Assembly: GCA_029964075.1 (NCBI GenBank)
Contig: CM057144.1
Location: 11,679,281 to 11,743,280 of the forward strand
Direction: 5' to 3'
Source of the DNA: Patiria pectinifera
Taxonomy: Eukaryota > Echinodermata > Asteroidea > Valvatida > Asterinidae
DNA length: 64,000 bases
Part shown: in pieces, positions 1 through 62,577 of the stretch
How the letters are laid out: the number at the start of each line of letters is the position of its first letter
Numbering within the stretch: the stretch's first letter is position 1
Position numbers and translations under genes: made by a program
The notes under the pieces: generated by a model
The model's input: the letters and a program-made list of their open reading frames with translations, nothing else
Told to the model about the DNA's origin: nothing
The model's database searches: none

Positions 1-199
1 GAGCACACATTTATTCCCTTATTAATTCTGATCGAGTCTGAAGAACATTTTCAACATTTAAAAACCCCCACAGATGATAGGCTGAGGAAAATCTTTGTTC
101 GAAAAGTTGTTTTACTTTTGATCCTAGCTCTCATCAGATTTTTAGAAATGTGTTCGACAAAAGAATAAGGACGAAATACAAAAAAAAAATCATTCCTAC

Positions 200-9487: not shown

Positions 9488-9627
9488 TAGTTTCCAAGAC
9501 TTTGGAATACGAGATACCAAACAATACTAGAAATTATAATATAAGTACATGTACATTGGATAAGGGTATACATGTACATGTACTGAAAATACCAATTACA
9601 AGAAATTACAATAAAAGTACTTGTACA

Positions 9628-10112
9628 TTAAAGAGGCTGTGGAATGCTCGAAGACATTTCCGTCATTTTTCGGGTATATGTAGCCTAAGGTGTGATGAAA
9701 TAAAAACAACTATTGTGTCTGTCATGAAATGAGTACAAAAGGTACTTTTGAGAGCTGTTTTTCAGGTCCCGTTTCGACCCGAACGTGCAATTTGTGTAAA
9801 TGTCGTCGTTGGGGGCAGCAAACAAAACATAGTAAATTGAGACGTAATAAACGGGACTCGTTTATACCACGCTGCATCGGGAGTCCTGTTTTTTACGTCA
9901 CGATTTACTATGTTTTGTTTGCTGCCCCCAACGACGACTTTTACACAAATTGCACGTTCGGGTCGAAACAGGACCTGAAAAACAGCTCTCAAAAGTACCT
10001 TTTGCACTCATTTCATGACAGACACAAAAGTCGTTTTTATTTCATCTCACCTTCGGCTACATATACCCGAAAAATGACGGAAATGTCTTTGAGCATTTCA
10101 CAACCTCTTTAA
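9628..10112. mobile_element. MITE family A, copy 2
   Basis: Same hairpin as 5431-5912: TTAAAGAGGCTGTGGAATGC at the left end and its inverse at the right, with arms of about 220 bp. The open frames across it on both strands are mirror images caused by the inverted repeat. Confidence 0.87.
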
Positions 10113-17000: not shown

Positions 17001-20000
17001 AAAACTCCTAGTCTGTAATCTCCTCGACCACTACTACAGTAGATGATGGATGTATAAGATTTGAAAAATATTTTTCAGGTTTATTCACTGAGCTTTTAGG
17101 CCCAAAAAAAAAAGTCTCCGGTTTCTGGTATGGAGCTTGCCCAAAAAGTGGTGCGGCGACGCGGCTTTTTTTTTTTTTTAACCTGTTTTTTTTGCTTCAA
17201 ATGTATGCTGATGACTGCAAATGGTGCCCGACTAAACTTAGTGCAAATATATGGGAGTCCAGAGAGGCCATATAAAGCTTATTCTCGATCATAACCCCAT
17301 CTAAAAACACGTTAAAATAAGCCATTTGCGTGTTAAATTTGAATAAAATCTGGAACGCTGACTTAATACAATGCTTTGCACGTTTTAACCTAGCATTCTC
17401 CCGACCAAAGAGACTGTTACTATATCACGTGATTCGGGGCAAGCCTTATGCTAGCAACCCCCAGCTCCGGCATGGTCTGGTGTCTTTGTGCCATTCTCAC
17501 CCATTGTGAACGATGTATTGGTGCTGAGCGTCTCTTACGTAACTATGCAAGAGCTTGCCCCGAATCATGTGATTAGCAACAGTGTCTTTGGTCTGGAGAA
17601 TTCACAGTTAAAATGTGCCAAGCATTCTGAGCAAGTCATTGTACCAGACGTTTCTCAAATGTAAATCCCAAAGGGTATAGGTTACACGCAAATGGCTTAT
17701 TGTGCAGCAGCAGGATTCCAGTCAAACCAGTGAGTTTGGCGGTTTTGAGACATCATCTTTTATTGAAAAAAAAAACTTTTTCATTTTGCCGACGCGCATG
17801 GCTACGGCGACGCGCGCGCATACCACAAACCGGAGACTTTTTTTTTTGGCCTTAAAGCTCTTTCAAGGCCCCTATGGAACCTGCTCAGAACTTACCACCA
17901 AGCTCCAGCTGGCCCATAGTTATCTCCGATCAACGGAAGGAGAGATATAGCCAGTGCGACAGTCCAACAGACAATATGGTACAATCTGAAATACAACATA
18001 TAAAGGTGGAACATTAACTTAGTGCAAAAATTTTGAAAAGAAATACTACCATCTGATAAACCCTTTATTCCCTTGGAATTGTTTGCAAGGAAGTTTTCTG
18101 AATCTTTCAAATTTTAAAGCTTTGAAGTTAACCTATGGTATAAATTTAGTAAACCTAATGTCATATGGACCATATTCATGTTGCGGCCGTTTGGATTTTT
18201 TTCCCATTCAAATCAACGTAACCAAAGCGAGGCTGGAAGGAAAAATAGTCTGGTTCCTTTTTGCACAAACAAACATTATCATTCAGTACTGTTATTGGAT
18301 ACAGGGAACATGACTAAAAATGGTGGCAGCATGAGGTCTATTCCTACTGGTCCTGAGCCTGGCACCGTGGTTTTAAATGGTTGATAAAACACCGGCTGGC
18401 TGGTTTTGAACAATTTTCCAGTGTCATATGAAATTTGGACTCCTATTAAATCTGGTCCCTTGTATTGGTTACCCTTTTATATGGAACCCAATCCGGTTTA
18501 AATGTACTTGTTTAAAACCAGCCAAGTGCATATTTATTGCCTTATTCGATGATGAATTTTGTGTGTTTTAAAGTGTGTTTTATCCTTCAAAAGTCGGAAG
18601 TTGATGGCCAAAGTTTGGTTATATTCCGAGGCAATGTAGGAAATTAGTCATGTTATAGCATTCAAAATCCTGCATTCTTCCGCTTCAACTGTAACCTTCG
18701 ATTGTAACACACCGGTATGACGGTTTACAAAAACTTTTATTTCCTGGAACTTGTTTCACCTTGGAGGGTGACCTACGAGCGGTCGAAAAACCCCAAGTCC
18801 TGAATTTACAGGAAGACAACTCAAGGACACAGGAAGTTCACTCACATTTCGTAGCGATCCGTCCGGATCATTTTGACGGTAATCAAGAACAGGTTGATCG
18901 TCAGGCAGGTAACCCATAGCAAGACGGCCCAATCTGCAATGAAATCAATAAACAAATGGCAGTGTATATTTTGCCGGAGACGGCAAACCTTTAGTAAACG
19001 TTAGTTTGCCGGATATGCACTGAACATGCGCAGTTACTGTTTTTTTGTACTTAAACATTTTCCGGTGACAAGTTTTAGTCTGGCTCCATGCCAAAATTAT
19101 CGTTGTTACCTCGTATTCACAAGATGGGATTCAGACCATTTTATAATTTCGGACTTTATTTCCCTTTTAAAAAAATCCTCCAGAGCCACAAATCTGAAAA
19201 AGAAAATGTAATACTCTGCAAAAAATGTTTGAGACATGTTAAAATAATAAAAGAAGAATATTCTTATTTATTTGGGGATGAGAAAAAAAAACTTAAAAAT
19301 GTGGTGCGGTCGGACTCGAACGCGAGTCATCCCGCTTACTAGAGCCTTTGCTTAACCACTACACCAAACGTGCTACACAACTTTTGGTGGGAATTTAATA
19401 CATCTTATAATTCAGCCCTATTTTAAAGAGTACAGCGCCCTCTGTTGATATGGATTGCCGCCGGCAAACCTTTAGTAATCGTTAGTTTGCCGTCATTACC
19501 TCCGGCAAAATATCCACTATCTAAACAAATCAATGAAATAAATAAAACACCTTTAAAGGGAAATGTACAACATTTGCTTTTGCTGCAATTTTCAGAAATA
19601 AATGGATTTGGAGGATTAGTATCTTATGGCAAATATTGTTAAATTGACTTGTTTCACATTTTGGGCTTGTACATGCTGGGAAAACCAAGAAAACCAATCA
19701 TATTCTTGTAGTCTGGTCCCCCACTGAAAATGAGACAGAGCAATTTGTAGACTTTGGGGAATTGTAAGGTCAGAAAATTAGTCCAGCAGGCTTGTACATC
19801 TTCACAGGTGTGTGATCAATTGCAAAGAAAATGCGGAATAACTAAATATGAAAAATTAGGAGCAGTTTTTGAAAATAAGCCAGTTTTTTTCCAATGCTGG
19901 ACAGCTGACCAGTGTTGAAAAAATACAACTTTTCTTGAAAATGTCAGCACACCAGGAGCCACAATTTTACAGGATGCTTTAGACTGTCATTCCTAACAAT

Positions 20001-23674: not shown

Positions 23675-26600
23675 ATGACAACAGCGGCAAGACCAACCTT
23701 TGACCCGGCCAGGGGAGGTCGGGGCAAAGGTGAGGGTGGTGACCTTAGCGCTATGTCCAAGCAATATTCCAGTCGAGATCTGCCTGCCCACACCAAACTG
23801 AAGTACAGGTAAAGTTCTACAGAAGCTGTTCTCGTTTCATTAAATAACCCCTACCCTGTAAGTTGACAGATCTTGCCATAAGCCCCGCCCACCTTTAGTC
23901 TGTGTGCATATCTCGGTGCTTGTGGGCAAGTTTTACCAGTCTACCTTGATCTAATTGGAGCGCTGTGATCCAATGGTTACGGTGTTCGACTCGCGTGCCG
24001 TGGTACCTGGGTTCGAACCCTGATGGAGAACATAATGCCGATGTTCTTGGGCAAGACACTTTACTACAATTGCCTCTCTCCACCCAGGAGTATAAATGGG
24101 TACCTGTGAAGGTAGAGACCAGAATGCGCTGATCTCGAGCTGCTGCAAAAATTGGTCTCATTGCCTGATGAACAGGGGTAATATTTGTGGAGCGCTCTGA
24201 GACCTTTGGTATAAAACGCCAAATATGCACCACATTAGTATATTATTATAATTGGTCAATGCGCACCGTTTAATTGACCCGCAGAAAGGTCCAGTTACGA
24301 CGTTTTGGAAGTTTGACTCGGACTTAATTTCAAAATTGTGAGCTTGCAAAGAACATCTTTTCGTAATGATAACTTTGTTTGACGTTTTGTCGTCTTGTCT
24401 TTGCAGGCAAAGCGGGCAGGAAACGGTGGACGAAGTGAGCCGTCGCGACATGCGCAAAGAGCTGGAGGAGAGGGAACGAGCTGCGGCCAGAGAGAAGAGG
24501 GGAGATCGGGGCAACAGGGGTAAGGGAGCATCTCATTCACCCAGACCAGAGTGGTCTGACTTGAGTCCCAATTTCTGGTGACTCTAAGGTACATAGGAGC
24601 AAGGTGTAGACTTAAAGGGAATATACAACATTTGCAAACATTGAAAAATAAAACTACCAAGTTTTTACAAAATACCTTACTAGGATGTTGGTAAATGACA
24701 GTCTAAAGCATCCTGTAAAATTATGGCACCTGGTGTGAAGTCATTTTCAAGAAAATGGTATTTTTGTATACATTTCCAACGGTGGTCAGCCGACCACCGT
24801 TGGAAAAACCTAACTATTTTTCAACTATGCTCCAACTTTACACTTTTTCCAGTCCAAATTTTGTTTGCTATTGGTTACATGTTCATGAACGGGTGCAGGC
24901 CAGCTAGACTGGTTCCCTTACCTTACAATTTTCCGGCATCTATAAATTGATCCATTTTATCTTTAGTGGAGTCAAGGAACCAGACTACTTGAACATTTTT
25001 GTTTTTCTTGGTTTTTCCAGCATTTTCGAACACAAAACTTCAAACATGTCAGTGTAACAATATTTGATCTATTACACTAACCCCTCAAATAGTTCATTTC
25101 TGAAAATTACAGCAAAAGCCAATGATGTACATTCCCTTTAAAACAAATTTCATCTTTTTTTTGTCACAAAGAATCATCCAACAGCAGCAGCAGTAGCAGC
25201 GCGAAAAGACCTCGCATTGAGCAGATCCCAGCGGCTAATTTGGACGCTGACGATCCGATCGATAAAGATGACGATGATGATGTAAGTCTGACATTTTCCA
25301 AAAATGTTGAGAGGCATAAGTATAGTTAATTAAATATTGCTGGAAGTTCCAAGAATGCTCTGCTAATTGTTGGATTTTAAATTTTTAAATACATTTTCCA
25401 GAGTGACGACTCGGATAGTGATGATGACACCGCTGATCTGCTTGCTGAACTCAACAAGATCAAGAAAGAGCGAGCCTTAGAACAGACCAGAAAGGCAAGT
25501 TTAATGGAAATCTTTTTGAAAATCTAGGGGCGAGAGTGTTGTGGAAATGCTAAGAAAAATCATACAAATCCAAACAATGGTCCGCGAGGCACTGCATCAT
25601 GGAGTTCACAACTTGGGAGAAGTTTGAAGACGTACCGTTTATGGTGACCAACTACACATTTTTCTGAAATTGTGCCCAAATCTTTTTATCCCCCTGGCTT
25701 TCAAGCCAGAGAGGGGGATATTGCGATCATCCATCGTGTATGCATGGGTGTGTGTGTGTTCCATTTCACTGTAAAGTTCAGTCATCAATCTCAACCAAAC
25801 TTGAAAGGTGGTCTGTGGAAAGAAGGCCGATGTCAGAAAAATCCTTTCCAATATGGATATTTACGAGGTCTCTGGAGAGATACTAATGCCCAGACTTGTA
25901 TTCGAGTCACGAAACATCAAGTCCAAGTCCGAGTCCGAGTCACATTTCTCGAGTCCGAGTCCCTAGTCCTCCAGGTCGAGTCCGAGTCCGAGTCATGAGT
26001 CACAACGGTCGAGTCCAAGTCCAAGTCACGAGTCACCTCTAACATTGTATTGGAAAAACGTACATTTCATGATTTTAGGGAATTAGAGATTCAGAGTCAC
26101 CTTTGATATAGTATTGGAAATACGTACATTTCAGGTGCTGTAAATTTCCATTTTTCCCCACAGCTTTTCTCTAATTTTCTCTGGAAATGAGGAGTTCATT
26201 TGCAAAAACAGTTATAAAGGCAATTCAGACAAAACTGGTATTGGCCTAACTGGCATTTCTCTTGAAGTTAAGATACCCAAAATTGACAATTTTTGGAGTG
26301 GATGCCATCATGATCTACGTTGCAACTTGCATGTAACGTTACCGAAATGGGCAGATCAGCAGACTATTCATATCGCGTTATCGCGATGCGACAGCAATAC
26401 ACGTGTGAACGACAGGACGTCTGACAAGAAAAGTCTGGTACCTTACCCTATCAATCTTGCACCAATGCAGTATTACGTGCGGATGGCCGGTTACAAGTCT
26501 CGGTAAATTTAGCGCCCTGTACATGTATTGCACAGTAAAGAAAACGATCGACTTACGTATGTGCGCGTGTGCAGTGTGGTAATTTCTGTCGAGTCACAAG

Positions 26601-30151: not shown

Positions 30152-33100
30152 TTACAAGTTTGGAGGATTGTCCAGCTCTGCCCAACTATCAATCTTGTTG
30201 GCTGCTCCTCTTTTGAGCATCAGTTCCTCCATCCGCCCCTCAAAGACACTGAAGATGCCGCCTTCAAATAACGACAAAAAGAAAAAAAAACACCATATTT
30301 TGGGATTTAATAACTGCCCCTCTTCTCCAATTTATAAGAAGTACTCACTCTGCATAGTACTTGTACAAAGTACTACTAAAATACACTGCTGAGGTGTACG
30401 CAATATAGTCGTGTTCCCTAACGTGGCGCACTTCGAAGCTTACCCGACTTTCCTCGTGTAGTGTTGCCAAACCTCTTTGTTGACAAACCTCAAATTCATG
30501 CAGTAAAATACTGGTACTTTTACCTTATTAATGCTTGCTATTTAACCTCTGTGAACAATTTTGGTTTCATAAAATTTAATCCGAAATTCAAAAACGGTGG
30601 CGTCCGGAAATTGGGCACAAATTGGCGGAGTGTTCCCTAACGTGGCGCACTTGAATAAATCTCGGAAAATTCCAAATTAACATTTAAGAATGTCTGTATA
30701 CTTGACAAGTTCTGATAAATAATTATTATCTCTACTTACATACCCAGCCAGATGTTCTTATTTTTTGGGGCATTTTCAAAGGGTTCACTTTGCACTTGAA
30801 AATAAAATCGGAAAATCACGGCAAAATAAATTTTTCTTCGAGCTGTGATACCGGTAAATAAACTCGCGATTTATGAACAGGAGTGTGTAGAACTTGATGA
30901 AATTTCACTTTCTGTGAAATTTCAGTTAAAACTTTTGCTCTGGGTAGGCGCTACAGGCGAAAAATCAAAGTGCGCCACGTTGGGGGCCGCACCACGTTAG
31001 GGTACATTAACAATACTGCCCAAGTAGTACTGTGGCTCCCATTCTACTCAAGTAGAATACTTATACTCAATACTACTCACAGATAACTCATACCAAATCT
31101 TGCTCACTCCAATAATATTCAAGTGACTCTTGTGTTGCAGTACTACTCATTTAGAACTCATGCTAGAGTTGTATACTCATACTCCAATACTAAGCAAGAA
31201 ATATAGTATTCAATTCTACTTTAGTTGTTATTGTACTTCAATACTACTCAAGTAGTACTTTTACTCCAATACTACTCAGGTAGTACTGTTACTCCAATAC
31301 TAGTCAAGTAGTACTCTTACTCCAATACTAGTCAAGTAGTACTTTTACTCCAATACTACTCAAGTAGTACTGTTACTCCAATACTAGTCAAGTAGTACTG
31401 TTACTCCAATACTAGTCAAGTAGTACTGTTACTCCAATACTAGTCAAGTAGTACTTTTACTCCAATACTACTCAAGTAGTACTTTTACTCCGATACTACT
31501 CAAGTAGTATTTTTACTCCAATACTACTCAAGTAGTACTTTTACTCCAATACAACACAAATAGTACTTTACTCCAATACTACTCAAGTAGTACTTTTACT
31601 CCAATACTACACAAGTAGTACTGTTACTCCAATACTATCAAATAGTACTGTTATCCAATACTACTCAAGTAGTACTGTTACTCCAATACTACTCAAGTAG
31701 TACTTTTACTCAATACCACACAAGTAGTACTGTTACTCCAATACTACTCAAGTAGGACTTTTACTCCAATACTGCTCAAGTAGTACTGTTACTCCAATAC
31801 TACTCAAGTAGTACTTTTACTCCAATACTACACAAATAGTACTTTACTCCAATACTACTCAAGTAGTACTGTTACTCCAATACTACTCAAGTAGTACTTT
31901 TACTCCAATACTAGTCAAGTAGTACTTATACTCCAACACTACTCAAGTAGTACTTTTACTCCAATACTACACAAATAGTACTTTACTCAAGTAGTACTTT
32001 GGTACACCTACCACTAAAGTACTACTTTATGAAAACAAGAAAACAAAATAGAACTATTTAAATGAACAGCATATGTTGCAATGAGTATGTCCATCATTTT
32101 TTGAAAGATATCAAGTATCTATCTTGGAAAGATATCCAGTGTTTTAAGCACATACCTGTGTGGACAAAGAGAATTTTCTTGCCCTGGAAGGTTTCTGGCT
32201 TTTCCTTCATCAGTTGGACCAGGTAATACGCGGCCTTCCCGGTGTACACTGGGTCAAGGATGATGCCTGTTGTCGCGGCAACCTCAAAGATGAATTCTGA
32301 AGGAAAAAACCAAAGAGAACACTTCATGATTATCAAGGAAAAATACAGGGTTAATAATAAGTTTTAAGTTTCAAATTCAATCAATATTTTTCTTACCAAG
32401 TTCTTCGGGCGTCGACAGTGCATAGCCCCGCCCTACCGCCCCGCTGTATATCTCACACAGTTCCTCTGACCACTCCCCGGGGTACTTGTCACCCCATCCG
32501 ACCCCGCCCAAGATTCTGTTGCACTCCGAATGGAAGAATTTAGCATTGTCCCCGACGGCCATTCCGTGGATCCTACAAAATAAAATGTATCAACCGTTTT
32601 AAAAATTTACAAAATCTATCAAAGCCAACTAAATGTGGTTTCATCTCTAGAATAGAAATTATTTGATTAATCCACCAAGGAGATTAAAGTTGCTCACGGG
32701 TACGGTACAATAGAGAATGAGTATTTAACAAAGTTATACAATTTTACAAAAACACTAAAAGTTACAATGCTATCACAAAAACACAAACAAGTACTATAAT
32801 ATAATGATTAAAGCTATAGTCCATCATTTGCAGCCATCCGAAAAAGTAACTGGTGTATTATTGTTGAAAAACATACTTGGTTGAAAGATAGTAAGTGGAC
32901 TAAACTCCCTGTGAAATTAATCTTTCTGGCAAGCTATCATTTTGAAGTAATCAATGAAAGAAGGCCTTTCCAACGGTGCGTCTTAAGATGCACCGTAGGA
33001 AAATTTAAATTAGTGGTTCGTTTTGTTATGCGGCGCAGCGCGCGCAAGCATTGGAACAACGCACAGGCACGCGCAGTTGCTATAATTCGTCGGATCAGTG

Positions 33101-41500: not shown

Positions 41501-44500
41501 TTTCATGTACAGTGGAACGTCGCTATAACGAACATCATGGGATCCACAGAAATTGTTCGTAATAGCGATCGTTCGGTATAGCCATTTTCACACATTAGTG
41601 GCGCCCTCTTTAAATTTACTCATTGTTATTGTGTAGTTGCATTTACAAACCACGCGCGGAGTCGCCAAACTTGTCCATTAATATTTTCAATTCCGTAGCA
41701 GACCTTCACCAAATACGCCCTGGTAGTTACTAGAAGACGACTTCGAACGCGTGCGACTATTGAATCATGTAATTACACAGTTTTTGATAATAGCCATTTG
41801 TGGCTGTTCTGTTGACATTTCCAACAACAATGTTCGGTACGTTTTGTACACAAAAATTTGGAGCCAAGGCTGATGTTCGGTATAGCCAAATGTTTGGTAT
41901 AGCGGTGTTCGGTATAGCGACGTTCCACTGCATTTTGTAATGTGATCTTTTCAATTTCGCGTACAGGGAGGAAACTGGCGAGAGTGCCTACCCGATCCCC
42001 ATCGGTGGGTCTACTGCTGTGGGACTGTTTGGCTACTTGCACGGCTTTGATGAACTACAGCGGCAGGTGAAAAAGCTCCTGACAATTGATTTTTTTCTTT
42101 TCATGAAGGTGAAAATCTATGTTTTCTCCGACATGTGTGAAAAATACTGCCCAACAAAACCAAAACCTACGGTCACAATTAAGAAGAGGTTCGCTCTGAT
42201 TTGTCAAAAGTTGATTCAGGGGTAGTGGAAACTCAGATCAAGGGTACTGAAATTTTGAGGTAGTAGGAATGCACCCATTCGGGGAAGTGTTCAAAATCCA
42301 TCCAGGGTTGTATGTAATTTACCCGTCCAGGGTAGTTGAAATTAGCCTGCTGAGTTGGTTTACACATCCAGGGACGTAAAAAAATTCCATCCTGGGAAAA
42401 TTTATAGTCTTCTTATTAAAAAGCAAATGCTTGTTGAAAGGGCTGAAATTAAAACCAGTGGTGGGTGACATAGAATTATCAATTTCGTAGCTTACGCTCG
42501 CTGTTATGTTTTTCATTTCTCAGGGTGTGACGGAAAAATTCACAGATATAGTAATAGCTTGCGGCAGCAATGGCTCTACATTGGGTCTGGCTCTGGCCAA
42601 CTATCTCACCGGCTCCAAGCTAAAGTAAGTCATGATTATCAGCCCATTAGGCCTTGTAGTGGGGAGTGTGGCATAGTGGTCAGGGATGTGATTTCTCCGG
42701 TTTTATCCGGAAATCCGGTTTTTTGGGCCTTAAAAGTCCACCAACGTGAATCGTGTGAATCCGTTGAGAAAATAGGGGGGTAGAATGTGCTAATTAATTA
42801 TTCATAATGAGTTTTGCTTGCCGAAATATCCGAAATTTACTTACGGTCATAAACTTCGTTGATCGATATGTATGCCGCACGCACATATTGAACACCCAAT
42901 GTGAGAACGAAGTTGAAGACCATGCGGTTGCCATTAGTGCGATTATGTGATTTTTCGCTCGGGGCCGAGATTGTGGTTATGTAGGTCTAGTTCCTGTGTC
43001 GGTACTTAAGATGCACGTGTTGCGCTGGTCAGGTGTGCAGACGAGTGCAGCATGGTACACTGGTACCCTTCGCGTGCTAACAGAATCAATGCTATGATGA
43101 AGGATCGGAACCAGTGACTACTGCAAGTACTCACAGGTTCGTTTTCCGTGCGGAATCTATCGGCCGAAGTTGGATCGTAAAAATAGTACTAGAAATTGTG
43201 GTTGTGAACAACCACAGAGCTGTTCCCAATATTGATTATCTGTTGGACCCATAGACATATAAGTAGAGATCTAAGTCTGTTTGCAACAGAACATACGGCT
43301 TTTCTGCATTAAGATTTGTTTTAATCAATAATACGTCCCTGACTATACATAAACATAAAATCTGTCAAGGTTAGCCGAAAAATCGGCTAAAACGGTCACT
43401 CTGGACAGGATTGGGCCTCAGCAACACGTGCGCTGCGGGCTGACTGACATACGATATGTACAACGTGCGTGCATGTACATGTACATTGTGGACGTCATGT
43501 GCATGTTTTAAAGCAGAGGTATTGTCAATCTGAAGTTTTAAGCATGCGTAGGGCATGTCCGAGTTTGTTTATTGCCTCGAAGCTTTGAAATGTTTAGACC
43601 TGCCCTTAATTTCTAAGGAAAAAGGGTCTTTTCATTATAACTTCCGGTCTGATGACGTCATACACCTTAAACTTCGCACACGTCTTAAGTGGGTCAAGGT
43701 CATCATATACACCAATATTTAGGCGATTCCGACAAACTTCGCCACAGACATCTATTCAAAATACATTTTTGAAAATGTTCAACCTGTCGCTAGAGGGCGC
43801 TCGAAGATTGCATGACGTCATCGTAGATGATTTGAAGAATACTATCACCCAAGAGACTAACACCGTTGAAAGAAAGTTCATATCTATTACCACTTTCAAA
43901 TTTAATAAGCCACTTCCGGTTTTGGCCTTTTTCGACCGGAAGCAAGGGTCACGTGATTTCACGCACACTGAATGAAATAAAGACCTCAACTTACTCTACC
44001 ACTTGCCGGCAACAGAATGCTGCGGACGCGTACGGTTGATTTCTTATGCATTTTTAAAAATTAAAAGTGTCACAATTTAATTGCCTATAAATAAACACCG
44101 GATGACGTCATCATGACGTCATCATTACACAAAGGTGTTTGAATTAAGGTCTTTGCTTGGACAAAGAGTGGTGTAAATGAATTACTTTGAAAATTTTCAA
44201 CCTGTCGCTAGAGGGCGCTCGAAGATTGCATGACGTGATCGGTAGATGATTTGAAGAATACTATTAGCTAAGAGACTAACACCATTGAAAGCAAGTTCAT
44301 ATCTATTACCACTTTTAAATAATAAGCCACTTCCGGTTTTGGCCTTTTTCGACCGGAAGCAAGGGTCACGTGATTGCACGCACACTGAATGAAATAAAGA
44401 CCTCAACCTACTCTACCACTTGCCGGCAACAGAATGCTGCAGACACGTACGGTTGATTTCTTATGCATTTTTAAATATTAAAAGTGTCACTTTTCAATTG

Positions 44501-47500
44501 CCTATAAATAAACACCGGATGACGTCATCATGACGTCATCATTACACAAAGGTGTTTGAATTAAGGTCTTTGCTTGGACAAAGAGTGGTGTAAATGAATT
44601 ACTGGCAAAGAGTCGAAAATGCCCTTTGAAAATCAACAATTTATTTTTAATTTCCATGTACAAAGTCTAAGGGAAAAATTAAATATTCAAAATTCTGTAA
44701 TAAATCGCGTGATGACGTCATGATGACGAAACATTGCGGCATACATCTTCAGATGATGGTTAATGACTATGCTGAGTTTAAAGTTGATCGGATTTAAAAT
44801 AATTGCCAAAGTGGCTTGTAGAATAAAAACGTGTACAAAGCCTATGGGGAAAAGTGGAAAAAGAAAAAGAAGAAACTAGAAATTGTGGTTGTGAACAACC
44901 ACAGAGCTGTTCCCAATATTGATTAACTGTTGAACCCATAGACATATAAGTAGAGATCTATGTCTGTTTGCAACAGAACATAGGGCTTTTCCGCATTATG
45001 ATTTGTTTTTATCAATAATACGTCCCTGACTATGCATGAACATAAAATCTGTCAAAGTTAGCCGGAAATCGGCTAAAACGGTCACTGTGGACAGGATTCG
45101 ACCTAAGCAACACGTGCGCTGTGCGCGGGCTGACTGACATACGATATGTACAACGTACGTGCATGTACATGTACTGTACATTGTGGACGTCCTGTGCTTG
45201 TTTCAAAGCAGAGGTATTGTCAACCTGAAGTTTTAGGCGTGCGCAGGGCATGTCCGAGTTTGCTGATTGCCTCAGAGCTTTCAAATGTTTTAGACCTACC
45301 CTTCAATAGACAATTAAAGTAAAAACTAATATAAAAACTGACATGGTTGATTTTTTAGGAATTTTCTAAGGAAAAAGGGTCTTTTCATTATAACTTCCGG
45401 TCTGATGACGTCATACATCTTAAACTTCGCACACGTCTTAAGTGGGTCATGGTCATCATATACACCAATATTTAGGCGATTCTGACAAACTTCGCCACAG
45501 ACATCTATTCAAAATACAACTTTGAAAATTTTCAACCTGTCGCTAGAGGGCGCTCGAAGATTGCATGACGTCATCGGTAAATGATTTGAAGAATACTATC
45601 AGCCAAGAGACTAACACCGTTGAAAGCAAGTTCATATCTATTACCACTTTTAAATAATAAGCCACTTCCGGTTTTGGCCTTTTTCGACCGGAAGCAAGGG
45701 TCACGGGATTTCACGCACACTGAATGAAATAAAGATCTCAACCTACTCTACCACTTGCCGGCAACAGAATGCTGCGGACGCGTATGGTTGATTTCTTATG
45801 CATTTTTAAAAATTAAAAGTGTCACAATTTAATTGCCTATAAATAAAGACCGGATGACGTCATCATGACGTCATCATTACACAATGTTGTTTGAATTAGG
45901 GTCTTTGCTTGGACAAAGATTGGTGTAAATAAATTACTGGCAAAGAGTCGAAAATCCCCTCTGAAAATTGACATTTTTAAAAAAATTTCTGTGTACAAAG
46001 TCTATGGGAAAAATTAAACATTAAAAAATCTATAATAAATCACGTGATGACGTCAGCATGACGAAAAGTTTCGGCATACATCTTCAGATGATGATTAATA
46101 ACTATGCTGAGTTTAAAGTTGATCGGATTTCAAATAATTGCCAAAGTGGCTTGTAGAATAAAAACGTGTACAAAACCTATGGGGAAAAGTGGAAAAAGAA
46201 AAAAAAAAAGAAACTAGAAATGTGTTTGTGGACAAACACTGAGCTGTTTCGACCGTTTTATTAATGACTGCTGTAAAGGAGTTTCATCCAGGTCGAATAA
46301 ACATGTACATGCGTATTTTTTTGAAATTTTCTGTATCTATCTACGACCTAACAAACCTTTTGCAAAAAAAAAAAAATTAACCACGTTCCATTGATGAGAT
46401 ATGAGTAAAATTTATATTAAATCACATGATGACGTCAACGTGACTTCACTGTAATTTCTGTCTACAACATGTCCCAGAATACTTGCATACCAAGTTTGAA
46501 CCCAATTGGACCTCCGGTTCTGTAGATATAGGGCCTTAAAGTATGCACTTTTAGGATTACGTAATGTGACACGTGATGACGTCATGATGATGTCATGATT
46601 CGGCATACATTTTCCGATGGTTGTATAAGTGTGTGCCAGGTTTGAAGTCGATCGGACCGTCTTTGATATAATTTTTGCAAAATTTGAAGAAAATATTAAA
46701 ATTTGAAAAATTCATAAAAAATCAGATGATGACGTCATGATGACGTCACTTCAGATTTTGAATGCTGTTATCTATACCTACCTACCCACCGAGTTTCATA
46801 ACGATCGGACATACCCTTATATGTGAATCAAAAAATCACGTTTTTGATGACGTCATGATGACGTCACACATTTTAACAAATTTTGTGCATCTATCTATGA
46901 CCTAACAAACCTGTTACAAAAAGAATTTTGAATTTACCACATTCCGTTCATGAGATATGAGTAAAAGGTCCAAAAAGTAAATAATTTATATAAAATTACA
47001 CGATGACGTCATCATGACGTCACTGTAATTTTCGTCTATAACACGTCCCGGAATACTTGCATACCAAGTTTGGACCAAATCGGACTTCCGGTTCTGTAGA
47101 TATAGGGCCTTAAAGTATGCTCTTAAAGGATGACGTCATGTGACACGTGATGACATCATGATGACGTCATGATTCAGTGCACATCTTCAGATAGTGGTCT
47201 AAGTGTATGCCAGGTTTGAAGTCGATCGGATTTGAAAAAATGCCAAAAGTGACTTGTAGAACGAAAACACGTGTTATCCTATGAGAAAAAAAGTGGAAAA
47301 CTAGAAATTGTGGTTGTGAACAACCACAGAGCTGTTCCCAATATTGATTATCTGTTGAACCCATAGACATATAAGTAGAGATCTATGTCTGTTTGCAACA
47401 GAACATAGGGCTTTTCCGCATTATGATTTGTTTTTATCAATAATACGTCCCTGACTATGCATGAACATAAAATCTGTCAAAGTTAGCCGGAAATCGGCTA

Positions 47501-50500
47501 AAACGGTCACTGTGGACAGGATTCGACCTAAGCAACACGTGCGCTGTGCGCGGGCTGACTGACATACGATATGTACAACGTACGTGCATGTACATGTACT
47601 GTACATTGTGGACGTCCTGTGTATGTTTCAAAGCAGAGGTATTGTCAACCTGAAGTTTTAAGCGTGCGCAGGGCATGTCCGAGTTTGCTGATTGCCTCAG
47701 AGCTTTCAAATGTTTTAGACATACCCTTCAATAGACAATTAAAGTAAAAACTAATATAAAAACTGACATGGTTGATTTTTCAGGAATTTTCTAAGGAAAA
47801 AGGGTCTTTTCATTATAACTTCCGGTCTGATGACGTCATACACCTTAAACTTCGCACACGTCTTAAGTGGGTCAAGGTCATCATATACACCAATATTTAG
47901 GCGATTCCGACAAACTTCGCCACAGACATCTATTCAAAATACATTTTTGAAAATGTTCAACCTGTCGCTAGAGGGCGCTCGAAGATTGCATGACGTCATC
48001 GTAGATGATTTGAAGAATACTATCACCCAAGAGACTAACACCGTTGAAAGAAAGTTCATATCTATTACCACTTTCAAATTTAATAAGCCACTTCCGGTTT
48101 TGGCCTTTTTCGACCGGAAGCAAGGGTCACGTGATTTCACGCACACTGAATGAAATAAAGACCTCAACTTACTCTACCACTTGCCGGCAACAGAATGCTG
48201 CGGACGCGTACGGTTGATTTCTTATGCATTTTTAAAAATTAAAAGTGTCACAATTTAATTGCCTATAAATAAACACCGGATGACGTCATCATGACGTCAT
48301 CATTACACAAGGTTGTTTGAATTAGGGTCTTTGCTTGGACAAAGATTGGTGTAAATGAATTACTGGCAAAGAGTCGAAAATGCCCTGTGAAAATTGACAT
48401 TTAAAAAAAAAATTCTGTGTACAAAGTCTATGGGAAAAATTAAATATTCAAAATTCCATAATAAATCACGTGATGACGTCAGCATGATGAAAAGTTTCGG
48501 CACACATCCTCAGATGATGATTAATAACTATGCTGAGTTTAAAGTTGATCGGATTTAAAATAATTGCCAAAGTGGCTTGTAGAATAAAAACGTGTACAAA
48601 ACCTATGGAGAAAGCGGAAAAAGAAAAAAAACTAGAAATGTGTTTGTGGACAAACACTGAGCTGTTTCGATCGTTTTCTTAATGACTGCCGTAAAGGAGT
48701 TTCATCCAGGGCGAATGAACATGTACATGCGTATTCTATACAATGAGTGTCTATCCTACGGCCCTGACTATGCATGAACATAAAACCTGTCAAAGTTAGC
48801 CGGAAATCGGCTAAAACGGTCACTGTGGACAGGATTTGACCTCAGCAACACGTGCGCTGTGCGCGGGCTGACTGACATACATGTACGATATGTACAACGT
48901 ACATGCATGTACATGTACATTGTGGACTGTGCATGTTTTAAAGCAGAGTTATTGTCAACCTGAAGTTTTAAGCGTGCGCAGGGCATGTCCAAGTTTGCTT
49001 ATTGCCTCGAAACTTTGAAATGTTTTAGACCTACCCTTAAATAGACCATTAAAGTAAAAACTAATACAAAAACTGCCATGGTTGATTTTTCAGGAATTTT
49101 CTAAGGAAAAAGAGTCTTTTCATTATAACTTCCGGTCTGATGACGTCATGCACCTTAAACTTCGCACACGTCTTAAGTGGGTCAAGGTCATTCTATACAC
49201 CAATATTTAGGCGATTCCGACAAACTTCGCCACAGACATCTATTCAAAATACATTTTTGAATTTTTTTAACCTGTCGCTAGAGAGCGCTCGAAGATTGCT
49301 TGACGTCATCGGTAAATGATTTGAAGAATGCTATCAGCCAAGAGACTAACACCGTTAAAAGCAAGTTCATATCTGTTACCACTTTTAAATAATAAGCCAC
49401 TTCCGGTTTGGGCCTTTTTCGACCGGAAGCAAGGGTCACGTGATTTCACGCACACTGAATGAAATAAAGACCTCAACCTACTCTACCACTTGCTGGCAAC
49501 AGAATGCTGCGGACGCGTACGGTTGATTTCTTATACATTTTTAAATATTAAAAATGTCACAATTTAATTGCCTATAAATAAACACTGGATGACGTCATCA
49601 TGACGTCATCATTACACAATGTTGTTTGAATTAGGGTCATTGCTTGGACAAAGATTGGTGTAAATGAATTACTGGCAAAGTGTCGAAAATGCCCTCTGAA
49701 AATTGACATTTTTTTTTAAATTTCTGTGTACAAAGTCTATGGGAAAAATTAAATATTCAAAATTCTATAATAAATCACGTGATGACGTCAGCATGACGAA
49801 AAGTTTCGGCATACATCCTCAGATGATGGTTAATAACTATGCTGAGTTTAAAGTTGATCGGATTTGAAAAAAAGCCAAAAGTGACTTGTAGAACGAAAAC
49901 ACGTGTTATCCTATGAGAAAAAAGTCTGAAAAACAAAAGAGAAAAAAAAAAATAACAGAAACAAGAGCTGTTTCGGTGTGTACACCGAAACAGCTAAAAA
50001 AAAAAAAAAGGAAAAAAAAAAACTTTAACGAAAACAATAGCTGTTCCCAATTGAAATTGGGAACAGCTAAAAACAACCATCGATGGAAAAAGAGGATTTC
50101 TGAAAATTAATTCACAGAACGTGATCTTCATTTTCTGTGTATGTATTTTCCATTGAAATGACGAGATTGCAAAACTCGAACCTGTGGAGAAACATCGTAG
50201 TGTGTTTCTGCAGTCCGGCAGAATTTTCGGCCACACGGGATGGGCCGTACACAGTGCAGCAATGCACACTGATACCGCGCCGGGCCGGCCGTGTGTACAG
50301 CGCGTTGTACGGCCGGCCAGACTGAATGTTTGCGGCGCTAGCGGCCATGATGTACGTTAAGCATAATTGTGGAATGACCCACCTCAAATATATTTTTAAG
50401 TAGGTGAGGCAAGTTTTAATCTCTTTTGATGGCTAGTCTTGATAATTTTTGTGGCGCAAATGAGAATAATCCAGGCACAAAATACATGAAATATAAACGA

Positions 50501-53267
50501 TTCCTTGCTTTACTACTGATACTACAAATATAGAAATGGTGAAATAATTTTTTCCAACAATACTACCGACGCTATTTTGAAAGGCATGTTATCGAGAGCA
50601 GAAGTGATTTAAGTTTACATTATACAATTTTGATTTTTTTTTTACAAAAAAATTACAAGATCTCCTCTGAAATGCTCTAAAATGCACCAGAAAGCTTCTC
50701 AAGTTCAAAAATTTTTGGGGCCCTTAAGCGGGCCCCGAACCCACGCCGTGGCTTCGCGGGTGGTTGTATCACAACAAAAATTCCCCCACAGGTTTGAAAA
50801 AAATCCTGGGGAGAACACCATGGTTCTCAACATTTTAACAAATAAGGGAAAATTCTTCATAAAATTAAAACAAATCCTGCTTCAGAATTTCAGAGGAAAG
50901 TGCCCAGTAATTGCCTCAGATTGCACCACAGAGCATCTAAAATCAAAAATTTTTCGGGGCCCTTAAGCGGGCCCCGGACCCCACGCCGTAATGGCTTCGC
51001 GCTTCGCGCTCGCCGGGATTTGCACTTCATGCATAAAATTTTCAGGTTTTTTTGTTACAGACCAATCACATCCCTGAGTGGTTAGGTTTTGTGACTCATG
51101 ATCAGAGGGTCAGGGGTTGGAATCCAGCTGCTGGCCATATGTTGTGTCCTTGGGCAAGCCATTTCACCCCCACTTGCCTCTCTCCACCCAGGAGTATAAA
51201 TGGGTACCGGCATTAGCTGGGGAGTAACCTGTGATGGACTGGCATCTCATCCAGGGGGAGTAGAAATATTCTCAGTCGTTTCATGCTACTGAAACCGGAG
51301 ATAAACGCCGGCCTGATGGGCCACATTGGCTCTCGACAGACTTAACTAGGTCTTGCACCGTCCTAAAGCGCTTTGCCTGTTACCCCCTGTACCGCCTCAA
51401 CTTGCCCCAGTGCTCAGTGGTTCTAGGCATTCACAAACCCGTAAATACAATGTAAATACAAGTGCTGATGCATTTATTGTTATCACAATCAGATGCTGAT
51501 TTGTTCTTGTCGCCTCAGGGTGCACGGCATGATCGTCTCAGACGATTCCAAGTTTCACTTCAAGGGGATGAACGAGGTCTTGCGGGAGGTGGACGCTAAG
51601 GACAGTAACGGCAAGGCTCTGCAGGCCGAAGACATCGTCAATCTGGTGGATGGGGTCAAGGGGCGGGGCTACGGATTGTCCACGCAGGAGGAGTTAGGTA
51701 AACAAATGCCTAGATTATAGGAAATTGTCGTATATCAACCCTGTCAGTACTACAGGTGACTTAAGTAAGCAATACACAAATCCTTCCAAAGGACTCTGGC
51801 ATGCACAGTTGATTGAATTTCACTGCCTGTGCACACACTCTTGTTTTACTGTACTCCATTGGACAATGCTTTGTGTTTTACTTACTGTCCCTGTAATATA
51901 ACACTCTCCGTAGACTAAGCACACAAACCTACTACAGAGGACCGTTTTGAACAAAAGACCCAACTCCCGAGGACTGAAAGGATCTGTTGTTCTCCCTTTG
52001 TGTGTCTGTCCTCGGGGGTTATGTAGAACAAGTTACATGCTGGTTCGAACATGTATGGCCTGAACTCCCATGACTCATTGATACTGAACGTACACAAACC
52101 ATAAGGCTCATAAGGCACGAGCATAAGATGCTGTTCGCAGTGCGATCAAGAGTCCATGAAAGTGGTTCCTCCAAACTTTCTCATTTAAACCATTAAAGGG
52201 AATATACAACATTTGCAAACATCAACAAATAAAACTACCAAGTTTTTACGAAATACCTTACTAGGATGTTGGTTAATGACAGTCTAAAGCATCCTGTAAA
52301 ATTATGGCACCTGGTGTGAAGTCATTTTCAAGAAAATGGTATTTTTGTATAAATTTCCAACGGTGTGGTCGGCCGACCACCGTTGGAAAAACCTAACTAT
52401 TTTTCATCTACTGCTCCAAATTTACCATTTTTTTTCCAGTGAAAATTTTGTTTGCTATTGGTTACATGTTCATGATCGGGTGCAGGCCAGCTAGACTGGT
52501 TCCGTTACCTTACAATTTTCCGGCATCTATAAATTGATCTATTTCATCTTAAGTGGAGTCAGGGAACCAGACTACTTGAACGTTTTTGTTTTTCATGGCT
52601 TTTTCGAACACAAAACTTCAAACATGCCAGTGTAACAATATTTGATCTATTATACTAACCCATCATATAGTTCATTTCTGAAAATTACAGCAAAAGCCAA
52701 TGATGTACATTCCCTTTAAGGGGGAAATATTTCACCGAGCCCTTACCATATGCAAATTTAGTCGACATCGAAATCACACACACAACACCTAAACATTCTC
52801 TTCTTTTTCACAGACATGGTAGCTGAGATTTGTGCCAAGACCGGGATCATTATCGACCCAGTCTACACAGGAAAGAGCGTGTATCACCTTCTACGACTGA
52901 CCAGAGAAGAACCAGACATGTTCAAGGGAAACAAGATACTCTTTGTGCACACAGGTGAGGCCCTTATTCGTCAGTCCGCCATCTTGAATTGAAAGAGAGG
53001 CTAGGGCTGCAGATACGTTTAACAAAATTCCTAGGATGAAAGGAATGAGGATGGAATTGAGGTAGATTACCTTTTAACCTCAATCTGGGAAAGTTATAAT
53101 TTATCTATTTATCAAATTTTTTTTTGTTTTCTTCAATCTTGCCAGGCGGCATCTTTGGACTTTTCGATGGCCGCATGGACGAGACCGTCCGAAGAATCGG
53201 ACTGGAACAGAACAAATTTCACGAATGGATGGAACTGGCCGACCAAGCTCCCGATATGAACCTCTAA
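38584..53267 (+). CDS. D-cysteine desulfhydrase / ACC deaminase-like PLP enzyme, copy 2
   Basis: Nine exons: 38584 (or 38923)-39090, 40137-40250, 40471-40629, 41102-41238, 41967-42066, 42524-42624, 51519-51697, 52814-52954 and 53146-53267. Exons 2-6 and 8 have the same lengths and phases as in copy 1; exon 7 is 3 bp longer. SELSGNKARKLEF keeps the PLP lysine and STQSNHCRA the substrate loop, while the phosphate loop is [10 protein letters not shown] instead of copy 1's [22 protein letters not shown] and FVHTGG are retained, again the desulfhydrase-type Thr. Two starts are possible. ATG 38584 (good context) gives 519 residues with a long Arg/Ser-rich, acid-poor leader that could be a mitochondrial presequence. 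ATG 38923 (MEGDTSPDS) gives 406 residues. Intron 6 is nearly 9 kb and holds the hairpin-headed array. The changed loop suggests altered cofactor binding or a different substrate. Confidence 0.9.
40575..41040 (+). repeat. Decayed tandem copies of the exon 3 / intron 3 junction
   Basis: The end of exon 3 plus its donor (AGGTCACCAGTCTCAGTAAG) is repeated at 40682-40701 almost unchanged. More degenerate copies of the same unit of about 66 bp fill the rest of intron 3. They are marked by GTCTGGAACCCCACCTC variants near 40722, 40793, 40928 and 40993. The second copy keeps a perfect donor at 40695/40696. Confidence 0.8.
41510..41934. mobile_element. Pogo-like MITE in intron 4 of desulfhydrase copy 2
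   Basis: The ends ACAGTGGAACGTCGCTATAA and TATAGCGACGTTCCACTG are inverted. Left and right subterminal parts repeat TTCGGTATAGC. CAGT-start ends with GTTATAACGAA-type subtermini are typical of pogo/Tigger-derived elements. TA precedes the left end, while the base pair after the right end is CA, which suggests decay of the duplication. Confidence 0.75.
43188..49956 (+). repeat. Hairpin-headed tandem array rich in TGACGTCA, five units
   Basis: Units begin at 43188, 44875, 46213, 47300 and 48631, each with ACTAGAAAT followed by a hairpin. Head type 1 (units 1, 2 and 4) has GTGGTTGTGAACAACCAC then GAGCTGTTCCC. Head type 2 (units 3 and 5) has GTGTTTGTGGACAAACAC then GAGCTGTTTCG. Bodies contain AACTTCCGGTCTGATGACGT, CGCTAGAGGGCGCTC, TGACGTCATCATGACGTCA and GGGAAAAATTAAA, and end in an A/G-rich run. 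Unit 1 has an internal duplication of about 410 bp. Unit 3 has a largely different body. The 107-codon frames at 43652 and 47830 are identical because units 1 and 4 are near-identical there. The array lies in intron 6 of desulfhydrase copy 2. Confidence 0.88.
49957..50070. repeat. Two palindromes ending the tandem array
   Basis: The first is a 30 bp palindrome (AGCTGTTTCGGTG, two bases, CACCGAAACAGCT). The second is AGCTGTTCCCAATT, GA, AATTGGGAACAGCT. They are separated by A-rich sequence. Each reproduces the signature next to one of the two unit heads of the array, GAGCTGTTTCG and GAGCTGTTCCCAAT. Confidence 0.85.
50660..51010 (+). repeat. Duplicated block with GGGCCC / GGGCCCC stem
   Basis: Two copies about 250 bp apart (near 50695-50760 and 50935-51000) each run AAAAATTTTT, GGGGCCCTTAAGCGGGCCCC, then a CCCACGCCG segment and GGCTTCGCG. 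The central 20-mer is a near-palindrome able to form a strong stem. The order of blocks suggests a tandemly repeated element, still in intron 6. Confidence 0.7.
51072..51380 (+). mobile_element. tRNA-derived SINE in intron 6 of desulfhydrase copy 2
   Basis: The tRNA-like head is GAGTGGTTAGGTTTTGTGAC with GGGGTTGGAATCC as a weak B box. The body is GTGTCCTTGGGCAAGCCA and CCAGGAGTATAAATGGGTAC, as in the 23.9 kb copy. The tail continues with GATGGACTGGCATCTCATCC, not present in that copy. Confidence 0.78.
52193..52719. mobile_element. MITE family C, copy in intron 7 of desulfhydrase copy 2
   Basis: The ends TTAAAGGGAATATACAAC and ATGTACATTCCCTTTAA are conserved, and the central palindrome at about 52357-52390 is well preserved. 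The order and sequence match 24612-25141 closely. Confidence 0.92.
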
Positions 53268-57481: not shown

Positions 57482-58215
57482 TGTCCCTAAAGTTTTTGCC
57501 CATTTGCTTGTTAAGGGTGTGGTGAAAATTATAACAAATGATTACATTCTTACAATTTCTCTGATTTGTTGGCAATGTTTGTTGTTACTCTGATTTCTAG
57601 TGAAAGGTAGACGAGCATACTTGAGGTTTTTTTTTTAGTTACAAATAATGTGTCAAATTATTACTAATAAAGTTTTTGTCAATTTGCTTGTTACTGTTGG
57701 GGGGTGGTGATTATTATAACAAATGCTTACATTCTTACAATTTCTCAGATTTTTGGGCAATGTTTGTTGTAACTCTGATTTCTAGTGAAAGGTAGACAAG
57801 CATACTTGAGGTTTTTTTTTAGTTACAAATAATTTGTCAAATTATTACTAATAAAGTTTTTGTCAATTTACTTGTTGAGGGTGTGGTGAAAATTATTACA
57901 AATAATTGCATTCTTACAATTTCTCAGATTTTTGGGCAATGTTCGTTGTGTAACTCAGATTTCTAGTGAAAGGTAGACAAGCATACTTGAGGTTTTTTTT
58001 TTATTGACAAATAGTTTATCAAATTATTACTAACTAATAAAGTTTTTGTCAATTTCCTTGTTAAGGATGTGGTGAAAATTATTACAAATGCTTGCATTCT
58101 TACAGTTTCTCAGATTTTGCAATGTTTGTTGTAACTCTGATGACAAACATACTTGAGGTTTTTTGTTTTTGGTTTACAAATAATTTGTCAAATTATTACC
58201 AGTAAAAAGAAAGTA
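57482..58215. repeat. Tandem repeat, unit about 180-186 bp, four copies
   Basis: Copies begin with AAAGTTTTTGTCAATTTGC at about 57489, 57668, 57853 and 58039. They run through TTACAATTTCTCAGATTTTT, GAAAGGTAGACAAGCATACT and CAAATTATTACTAATAAAG. The last copy has a deletion. The unit length is in the nucleosome-repeat range often seen in satellites. Confidence 0.9.
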
Positions 58216-58367
58216 AATAAAGGCCCATTGCACTGGACAATACAGATATGATAAGTGGAATTTGTGTGCATGGCACTGGGAGTAAAGCACATGAAAATTA
58301 AGCACATGTATACTTGTTACCGGCTAAAATGTCATTTGATGCACATTGCTTATGACTGGTTCTCCGC

Positions 58368-58898
58368 TTAAAGGGAATGTACATCATTGGCTTGTGCCGT
58401 AATTTTCAGAAATGAACTATTTGAGGGGTTAGTATAATAGATCAAATATTGTTACACTGACATGTTTGAAGTTGTGTGTTCGAAAATGCTGGAAAAACCA
58501 AGAAAAACAAAAATGTTCAAGTAGTCTGGTTCCCTGACTCCACTAAAGATGAAATGGATCAATTTATAGATGCCGGAAAATTGTAAGGTAAGGGAACCAG
58601 TCTAGCTGGCCTGCACCCGTTCATGAACATGTAACCAATAGCAAACACAATTTGGACTGGAAAAAAATGGTAAATTTGGAGCAGTAGTTGAAAAATAGTT
58701 AGGTTTTTCCAACGGTGGTTGGCTGACCACCGTTGGAAATTTATACAAAAATACCATTTTCTTGAAAATGACTGTACACCAGGTGCCATAATTTTACAGG
58801 ATGCTTTAGACTGTCATTTACCAACATCCTAGTAAGCTACCGTATTTCGTAAAAATGTGTTAGTTTTGTTTTTCGATGTTTGCAAATGTTCTCTTTAA
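58368..58898. mobile_element. MITE family C, minus-orientation copy
   Basis: Begins TTAAAGGGAATGTACATC and ends GCAAATGTTCTCTTTAA, the right terminus having lost a few bases. The central palindrome near 58707-58740 is present (CCAACGGTGGTTGGC / GACCACCGTTGG). Confidence 0.9.
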
Positions 58899-61800: not shown

Positions 61801-62062
61801 GACCCCGTTGATTAACCTCCACCCCAGGGTGGCATGCCGGGGTCTAACGGACCCTCCGTTACCACCATTTCCTGTTCTGCTGGTAGCACATTATGATTTA
61901 TTAGGTTCTGCGCTGGGGGGAGAAAAACCATAACTCACCGGTCCAGGAATGTTTTTTTTTCTGGTTTCTCTTTTAACAAGCTTAGGCCAAATTCTACACC
62001 TATGCCCCCAGACTTAGCAGAACTGTACGAGGCACATACATTGTATATATATCCCACACTTC

Positions 62063-62577
62063 TTAAAAGGAATGTACATCATTGGCTTTTGCTGTAATTT
62101 TCAGAAAAGAACTATTTGAGGGATTAGATTAAATATTGCTACACTGATATGTTTGAAGTTTTGTGCTCGAAAATGCTGGAAAAACTAAGAAAAACAAAAA
62201 TGCTCAAGTGGTCTGGTTCTCTGACTCCACTAAAGATAAAACGGATCAATTTATAGATGCCAGAAAATTGTAAGGTTTAGTCTACTGGCCTGCACCTGTT
62301 CGTGAACATGTAACCAAAAGCAAACAACATTTTGACTGAAAAAGAAATGTAAATTTGGAGCAGTAGTTGAAAAATAGTTAGGTTTTTCCAACGGTGGTCG
62401 GCTGACCACCGTTGGAAATGTATACAAAAATACCATTTTCTTGAAAATGACTTCACAACAGGTGCCATAATTTAACAGGATGCTTGAGACTGTCATTTAC
62501 CAACATCCTAGTATTATTTCGGAAAAACTTGGTAGTTTTGTTTTTCGATGTTTGCAAATGTTGTATATTCCCTTTAA
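62063..62577. mobile_element. MITE family C, minus-orientation copy
   Basis: Begins TTAAAAGGAATGTACATC and ends TTGTATATTCCCTTTAA. The central palindrome (CCAACGGTGGTCGGC / GACCACCGTTGG) lies at about 62386-62417. Small internal deletions separate it from the copy at 58 kb. Confidence 0.9.

Follow-up and report, generated by a model that had tools for sequence, protein, structure and literature searches.

A tandem array with hairpin-bearing ends in the Patiria pectinifera genome as a probable composite of nested Helitron2/Helentron-like transposons

A 64-kb stretch of the Patiria pectinifera genome (C16:11679281-11743280 of 613.5 Mb; hereafter the window) contains a tandem array whose units carry two different hairpins, which raised the question of what kind of element this is and how the row of units was built. 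Read on the plus strand, five units of 1.1-1.7 kb each start with ACTAGAAAT (at 43188, 44875, 46213, 47300 and 48631), and the types of their starts follow the order 1,1,2,1,2: the type-1 hairpin TGTGGTTGTGAACAACCACA is followed by the word AGCTGTTCCC, and the type-2 hairpin GTGTTTGTGGACAAACAC by the word AGCTGTTTCG. At the far edge of the array each word occurs once as a palindrome, type 2 at 49966-49995 and type 1 at 50039-50068, and neither 10-letter word is present anywhere else in the window. This layout, five hairpin-headed units closed by two palindromes of the same words, had been described in an initial annotation and is borne out by the sequence. The array is probably a composite of non-autonomous Helitron2/Helentron-type (HINE-like) rolling-circle transposons lying on the minus strand, and it probably grew by nesting at a T-tract, after which 5' ends were lost and units recombined. 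The element kind is known and well supported, and the elements themselves are ordinary; what stands out is their arrangement in bracket-like arrays that contain many 3' ends.

The initial annotation had taken the hairpin heads as unit starts. Read in this way, the plus strand left the head hairpins without a partner at the opposite edge and was abandoned, and the minus strand fitted, with the heads as 3' ends and the tail palindromes as 5' ends. On this strand every 3' end consists of the matching 5' word in inverted form, 1-2 bases, the hairpin and ATTTCTAG, followed by T. The inverted 3' word (the 3' asymmetrical terminal inverted repeat, ATIR) is 13 bp long in type 1, at 29 nt from the CTAG end, and 10 bp long in type 2, at 28 nt; this holds in 5/5 units of the window, and the hairpin and CTAG are likewise present in all five. 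The 5' word forms a palindrome adjoining a T-run, and its precise first base is uncertain owing to the Ts; a T-tract follows a short way inside, and then a body that is non-coding. The type-1 and type-2 words differ at 2 of their first ten positions, and both changes are found in both palindrome arms as well as in the 3' copy.

These ends exceed what is expected by chance. Hairpins with a stem of at least 7 ending 3-13 nt before CTAGT were found at exactly five places on the two window strands, and 50 block shuffles gave a mean of 0.66 and a maximum of 3. Palindromes with arms of at least 13 and loops of up to 4 were detected at 6 centre positions (four palindromes, the two of the array included) versus 0 in each of 20 shuffles, and the folding z scores of the two 5' palindromes were -8.5 and -8.1. 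The signal of the head hairpins by themselves is weaker, with z values of -2.4 for type 1 (3/200 shuffles equal) and of -1.6 and -1.7 for type 2 (15/200 and 12/200). The claim that the hairpins mark real boundaries, which genome copies with ends elsewhere would contradict, was checked in part, and at the nine outer boundaries examined the hairpin end was the 3' boundary, so that their boundary role stands. At these boundaries the 5' flank ends in TT in 9/9 cases and the 3' flank starts with T in 9/9 and with TT in 7/9, and no target-site duplication was visible by eye.

The arrangement agrees with that of a known group. In Helitron2, according to the accessible part of Bao and Jurka 2013 (PMC3627910), to which as to the other papers cited here our comparisons are confined, a 5' word lies in a 5' hairpin and an inverted 3' word lies 20-30 bp from the 3' end, just upstream of a hairpin. 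The minus-strand ends of the array fit this description, with the hairpin word at or near the 5' end and the inverted 3' word 28-29 nt from the end, directly upstream of a hairpin; both also show compensatory changes among related elements and, probably, a T-run target. With Helentrons and HINEs the array elements share palindromic subterminal repeats near the 5' end, a 3' hairpin and, probably, T-rich insertion with variable numbers of Ts (Thomas et al. 2014, PMC4067079); a CTAG 3' end is reported there for the proto-Helentron of Phytophthora, and CTAG is present here at all five units. Rolling-circle replication, which the initial annotation had put forward, was an apt mechanism class, but the design is not without a named family, as had been supposed, since it is that of Helitron2/Helentron (HINE) elements. 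We infer from the sequence that the array elements transpose by a rolling circle, and likewise the kind of enzyme that would move them. A canonical Helitron (Helitron1) was also considered: the CTRR-3' end with a hairpin shortly upstream is found in 5/5 units, but the 5'-TC, the A/T insertion and the lack of a 5' hairpin are not, and there is instead a 5' palindrome after a T-run, with T on both flanks. A miniature inverted-repeat transposable element (MITE) or another cut-and-paste DNA transposon was rejected because the ends are asymmetric and the nine outer boundaries have no target-site duplication visible by eye.

A coding partner was sought in the genome and in the window. The genome contains 148 matches to the Helitron Rep domain (control, 0 of 14 genomes), and none lies within the window. 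A 3' end of form 2b, which is related to the array ends, was found within 25 kb of Rep at 4/20 of the places examined (the merged ones on C1-C6 and on C7 below 4.76 Mb), at 4.0, 12.3, 13.3 and 19.1 kb, with Rep opposite to the element in all four. The 10 longer open frames of the window had no Pfam family above cut-off (one weak match below it, DUF4461), and Rfam gave 0 matches in the window. As to the distribution of Rep, a hand count placed 86/148 matches on contig C7 in a genome of 1020 contigs, and several copies on other contigs have open frames of more than 3000 aa.

The ends recur in the genome. The 3'-end pattern has 743 exact matches and the 2b form 479, with 0 for the reversed-pattern control and for the control of 2b, and the 3'-end pattern has 0 matches in a viral and 0 in a prokaryote collection. 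When 3' ends within 5 kb on the same strand were joined, the first 100 type-1/2 ends listed formed 56 clusters, 42 single and 14 multiple, and 9/14 of the latter were of mixed type. We read 43 stretches, of which L001-L008 lie inside regions fetched later, L009-L030 are the first places listed and L031-L043 were picked for close-set matches regardless of type; several of the early ones have no element end. In element sense, the ends range from 5'1..3'1 in L038, and the same ends with two bodies in L036, to 5'2 5'2..3'2 3'2 (L031), 5'2 5'2..3'2 3'1 3'2 (L032), 5'2 5'2 5'1..3'1 3'1 3'2 3'2 (L033) and 5'1 5'2..3'2 3'1 (L034), the last being a window-like layout at another site; the window itself reads 5'1 5'2..3'2 3'1 3'2 3'1 3'1. 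Seven 5' ends are stacked in L030, the outermost with a damaged arm, and in L039 ten 5' ends of AGCTGTT type and five of type 3 (described below) fall within about 0.95 kb. At C2:4.607-4.658 Mb, 22 3' ends among the matches listed spread over about 51 kb in clusters of 13 and 9. Complete elements of the 2b family were seen head to tail (L016, L022, L035), where the CTAG of one is separated from the 5' palindrome of the next by only a few bases, mainly T.

How such layouts arise is suggested by the minus-strand order of the window, which runs TTTTT, type-1 palindrome, T-tract, type-2 palindrome, U5 (3'2), U4 (3'1), U3 (3'2), U2 (3'1) and U1 (3'1). The type-1 palindrome (AGCTGTTCCCAATT.., 50039-50068), preceded by TTTTT, is the outermost 5' end of the composite, and the type-2 palindrome (AGCTGTTTCGGTGT.., 49966-49995) lies within the T-tract of the type-1 element, with a T-tract stretch at 49996-50038 between the two. 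In L038, a single type-1 copy, palindrome, T-tract and body are uninterrupted: its bases 12-85 (counted from 12 bases before the palindrome) match the window type-1 palindrome and T-tract at 97.3% over 74 bases, and U2, U1 and U4 match it from bases 74, 78 and 82 onward. Because L038 is continuous at this point, the T-tract in which U5, of type 2, sits is that of a type-1 element; U1 and U2 also start there. U5 (48632-49995) is a complete type-2 element from 5'2 to 3'2 with a type-1-like interior; the initial annotation's unit 5, a type-2 head with a type-1 body, holds for the interior but not for the first ~100 bases at the other edge, which are type 2 too. The make-up of U5 is not peculiar to this array, since it is 96.0% identical over 1380 bp to the L031 element at another site. 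U4 (47301-48631), a type-1 body with its 3' end, is the rest of the type-1 element entered by U5. The three remaining units have no 5' palindrome: U3 (46214-47300) has a type-2 body unlike that of the other units, and U2 (44876-46213) and U1 (43189-44875) have type-1 bodies.

The 3' ends of these units are uniformly built. In U5 (48632-48669, type 2) the ATIR occupies 48660-48669, the hairpin 48640-48657 and CTAG 48632-48635, and in U3 (46214-46251, type 2) they occupy 46242-46251, 46222-46239 and 46214-46217. The type-1 ends are those of U4 (47301-47342; ATIR 47330-47342, hairpin 47309-47328, CTAG 47301-47304), U2 (44876-44917; 44905-44917, 44884-44903 and 44876-44879) and U1 (43189-43230; 43218-43230, 43197-43216 and 43189-43192, then T), the last being the outermost 3' end of the composite. 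At 1204-1660, apart from the array, lies a divergent copy of its interior, with 70.5-74.0% identity over 387-471 bp to U1, U2, U4 and U5, and no element ends were seen there.

Stacked 5' ends point in the same direction. Neighbours are spaced 45-113 bp apart (n=39; 37/39 at 45-78), and the stacks mix types 1, 2 and 3, so they do not come from copying one element's own 5' end. These data suggest that the array probably grew by repeated nesting at the T-tract just inside 5' ends, and the most likely reading of its sequence is a bracket-like structure of elements that landed inside one another. The order of types was compared in ten arrays scored with type-1/2 ends (the window, L030-L034, L039, L040, L042 and L043), the first 3' end in L039, L040, L042 and L043 being taken from the genome listing at 1.3-1.4 kb from the 5' end, i.e. 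one unit length. The innermost 5' type equalled the first 3' type in 10/10 arrays when only types 1 and 2 were counted; assigning four type-1 and six type-2 cases at random would give all ten 1 time in 210. The outermost types agree in 7/10 arrays (the window, L031-L034, L042 and L043), and two type-3 cases, L011 and L021, agree by eye with the bracket order, which these comparisons support but do not prove.

The bodies have a history of their own. From its second duplicate copy on, U1 shares 524 identical bases with U4, the remaining stretch differing at 2-10 per 100 (0/2000 permutations), and U2 and U4 share 270 identical bases (10/5000 permutations). U1 also contains an internal 417-bp duplication (43768-44603) distant from any hairpin. 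Because the exchange tracts and the duplication both lie inside bodies, hairpins are not needed for either. The earlier proposal that hairpins are the sites of duplication is made unlikely by these tracts in unit interiors and by the joining of units at the T-tract inside the 5' end. The array (43189-50069) has in addition 32 copies of the octamer TGACGTCA (4.65 per kb), which we take to be the cAMP response element (CRE) octamer, versus 5 in the remaining window (0.09 per kb), and CCGGAAGT and CACGTG are likewise enriched; the bodies might possibly carry these octamers as promoter-like cargo.

A scheme of nesting would account for the layout as follows. Several families with different matched end words coexist in this genome and would land in T-runs, so that the T-tract just inside an element's own 5' end would be a ready landing site. 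Repeated landing there would stack 5' ends at one edge and leave a row of bodies, each with its own 3' end, in nested-bracket order of types; recombination or slippage within the stack, which is short and rich in T, would then have removed some 5' ends, and the final layout would result from homologous exchange among the bodies. The same kind of element could instead have multiplied mainly in place, by unequal crossing-over or slippage between the 5'-side T-tract and a 3'-side T-run that duplicated blocks of body and 3' end without a new 5' end. The start of all four inner units in the T-tract without a 5' palindrome, the long identical tracts common to U1, U2 and U4, and the two bodies behind one 5' end in L036 would all be expected, but alternating types with different bodies, the complete 5'2..3'2 elements inside type-1 elements (window and L034) and the mixed 5' stacks are left unexplained, and U5, being 96% identical to an element at another site, came from outside; we regard growth mainly in place as unlikely. 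Rolling-circle read-through, in which a circle or a bypassed terminator would give a concatemer inserted in one step, is the process to which tandem Helitrons are ascribed in the accessible literature (PMC4067079, PMC12628747), and the CTAG, T-run, AGCTG junctions of the 2b family (L016, L022, L035) have the expected form. A concatemer junction, with a 3' end directly on a 5' end, is however found at 0/4 internal junctions of the window, and two types with different bodies are not obtainable from one circle, which makes this origin quite improbable here. The least probable origin, to which we give hardly any weight, is the one in the initial annotation, an unnamed modular system with a hairpin-recognising recombinase: the two matched hairpin signatures and the lack of any protein family in the 10 window open frames scanned would suit it, but the ends match the Helitron2/HINE arrangement, the genome is rich in Helitron Rep domains, and T-tracts and interiors, rather than hairpins, contain the breakpoints.

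Several observations weigh against the composite built by nesting. Only two 5' ends accompany the five 3' ends of the window, so that the loss of three 5' ends has to be assumed, and its type-1 pieces, when rejoined, gave an alignment score of 66, inside the range of the shuffles (mean, 59.6; standard deviation, 4.6; maximum, 72). An eleventh array, L041, had no AGCTGTT 5' end within 1.8 kb and was left out of the comparison of types. In L039 the innermost type-1 end has a type-3 5' end on its inner side, and the first listed 3' end is type 1, which is a mismatch if type 3 is counted; without L039 the chance figure for the bracket order becomes 1 in 84. The outermost types of L030 and L039 disagree on the listings, and those of L040 agree only when a 2b end lying 4 kb farther outward is included. 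Exact-match listings miss degenerate ends, the four distances between Rep and 2b ends are too uneven to name a partner, so that none is tied to these ends, and the array, known from one assembly, may be misassembled.

The words themselves appear to have changed during the history of these families. In type-3 elements, read in L011 (one) and L021 (two), the palindrome is GGCTTTTCCGCA..TGCGGAAAAGCC, and the 3' end consists of TGCGGAAAAGCC, a hairpin and ATCTCTAG or ACCTCTAG, then T. Five aligned type-1 bodies contain a type-3 3' end, whose last base is C in four and G in one (L034); in the window the relic word (TGCGGAAAAGCC on the minus strand) and its hairpin, with CTAC replacing CTAG, are found at 47409-47420 in U4, 44984-44995 in U2 and, with one mismatch, 43297-43308 in U1. 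Beyond it the type-1 body has a tail (74 bp in U4) with the type-1 terminator, and in nine comparisons the similarity to type 3 ended at the CTAG of the type-3 3' end, with 69-78% identity to the left of it and 34-41% to the right. The type-1 family therefore resembles what would be left of a type-3 element after bypass and loss of its terminator, although a type-3 element captured within another element would give the same layout. Terminator bypass has been shown experimentally for Helraiser, as stated in the accessible part of PMC4778049, and Bao and Jurka proposed from compensatory changes that the match between 5' and 3' words is needed for replication to stop (PMC3627910). It is possible that the matched words work as a terminator code. 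Tentatively, they could form a bracket code in which replication from a 5' end passes 3' ends of other types and stops at its own, so that nested mixed arrays would move whole, and new codes would arise when one terminator fails through bypass or loss and another replaces it, a change of which the type-1 family would be a record.

Comparison with described arrays underlines what differs here. No coding element with these ends was found, unlike in the Helitron2 group, for which rows of many 3' ends are not described in the accessible part of PMC3627910. Composite FoHeli elements of Fusarium resemble the array in self-insertion giving several 5' ends and stacked short 5' pieces, but they have several 5' ends per one 3' end, whereas the array has rows of 3' ends, mixed types and bracket order (PMC5148889). 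Plant centromeric arrays also consist of tandem truncated Helitrons, many with several 5' ends and one 3' end, unlike here (Xiong et al. 2016, as told in PMC12628747). Cg_HINE of the Pacific oyster combines non-autonomous Helentron ends with tandem repeats and a TT insertion preference, but its repeats are short and lie inside one element, and here the repeat unit is the whole element (PMC7492417). A many-3'-end array with bracket order was not found in the accessible portions of the open-licence literature. Arrays of this kind would be a sequence record of rolling-circle elements nesting in one another, and they make it testable whether the match of 5' and 3' words is required for replication to stop. 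They would also document how a new family was probably born, with type 1 arising from type 3, and how elements that target T could assemble long arrays such as that at C2:4.607-4.658 Mb; arrays of this sort could seed satellite DNA.

The window contains other repeats. A repeat of ~0.53 kb is present in five copies (19550-20072, 24608-25141, 52193-52720, 58367-58890 and 62062-62577), most of them with TTAAAGGGAA..TTCCCTTTAA-like ends and at least three with a central 34-bp palindrome, and is MITE-like of TTAA type. Other long palindromes of the window (24773, 58706 and 62385) were set aside, as they belong to an unrelated repeat. A foldback repeat in two copies (5427-5912 and 9624-10112) is self-complementary at 93.7% and 91.4% along about 0.49 kb and has the ends TTAAAG..CTTTAA. 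Unrelated tandem repeats lie at 2059-2294, 4813-5138, 13601-14337, 31234-31988 and 57488-58206, the one at 31234-31988 consisting of about 27 copies of a 28-bp unit.

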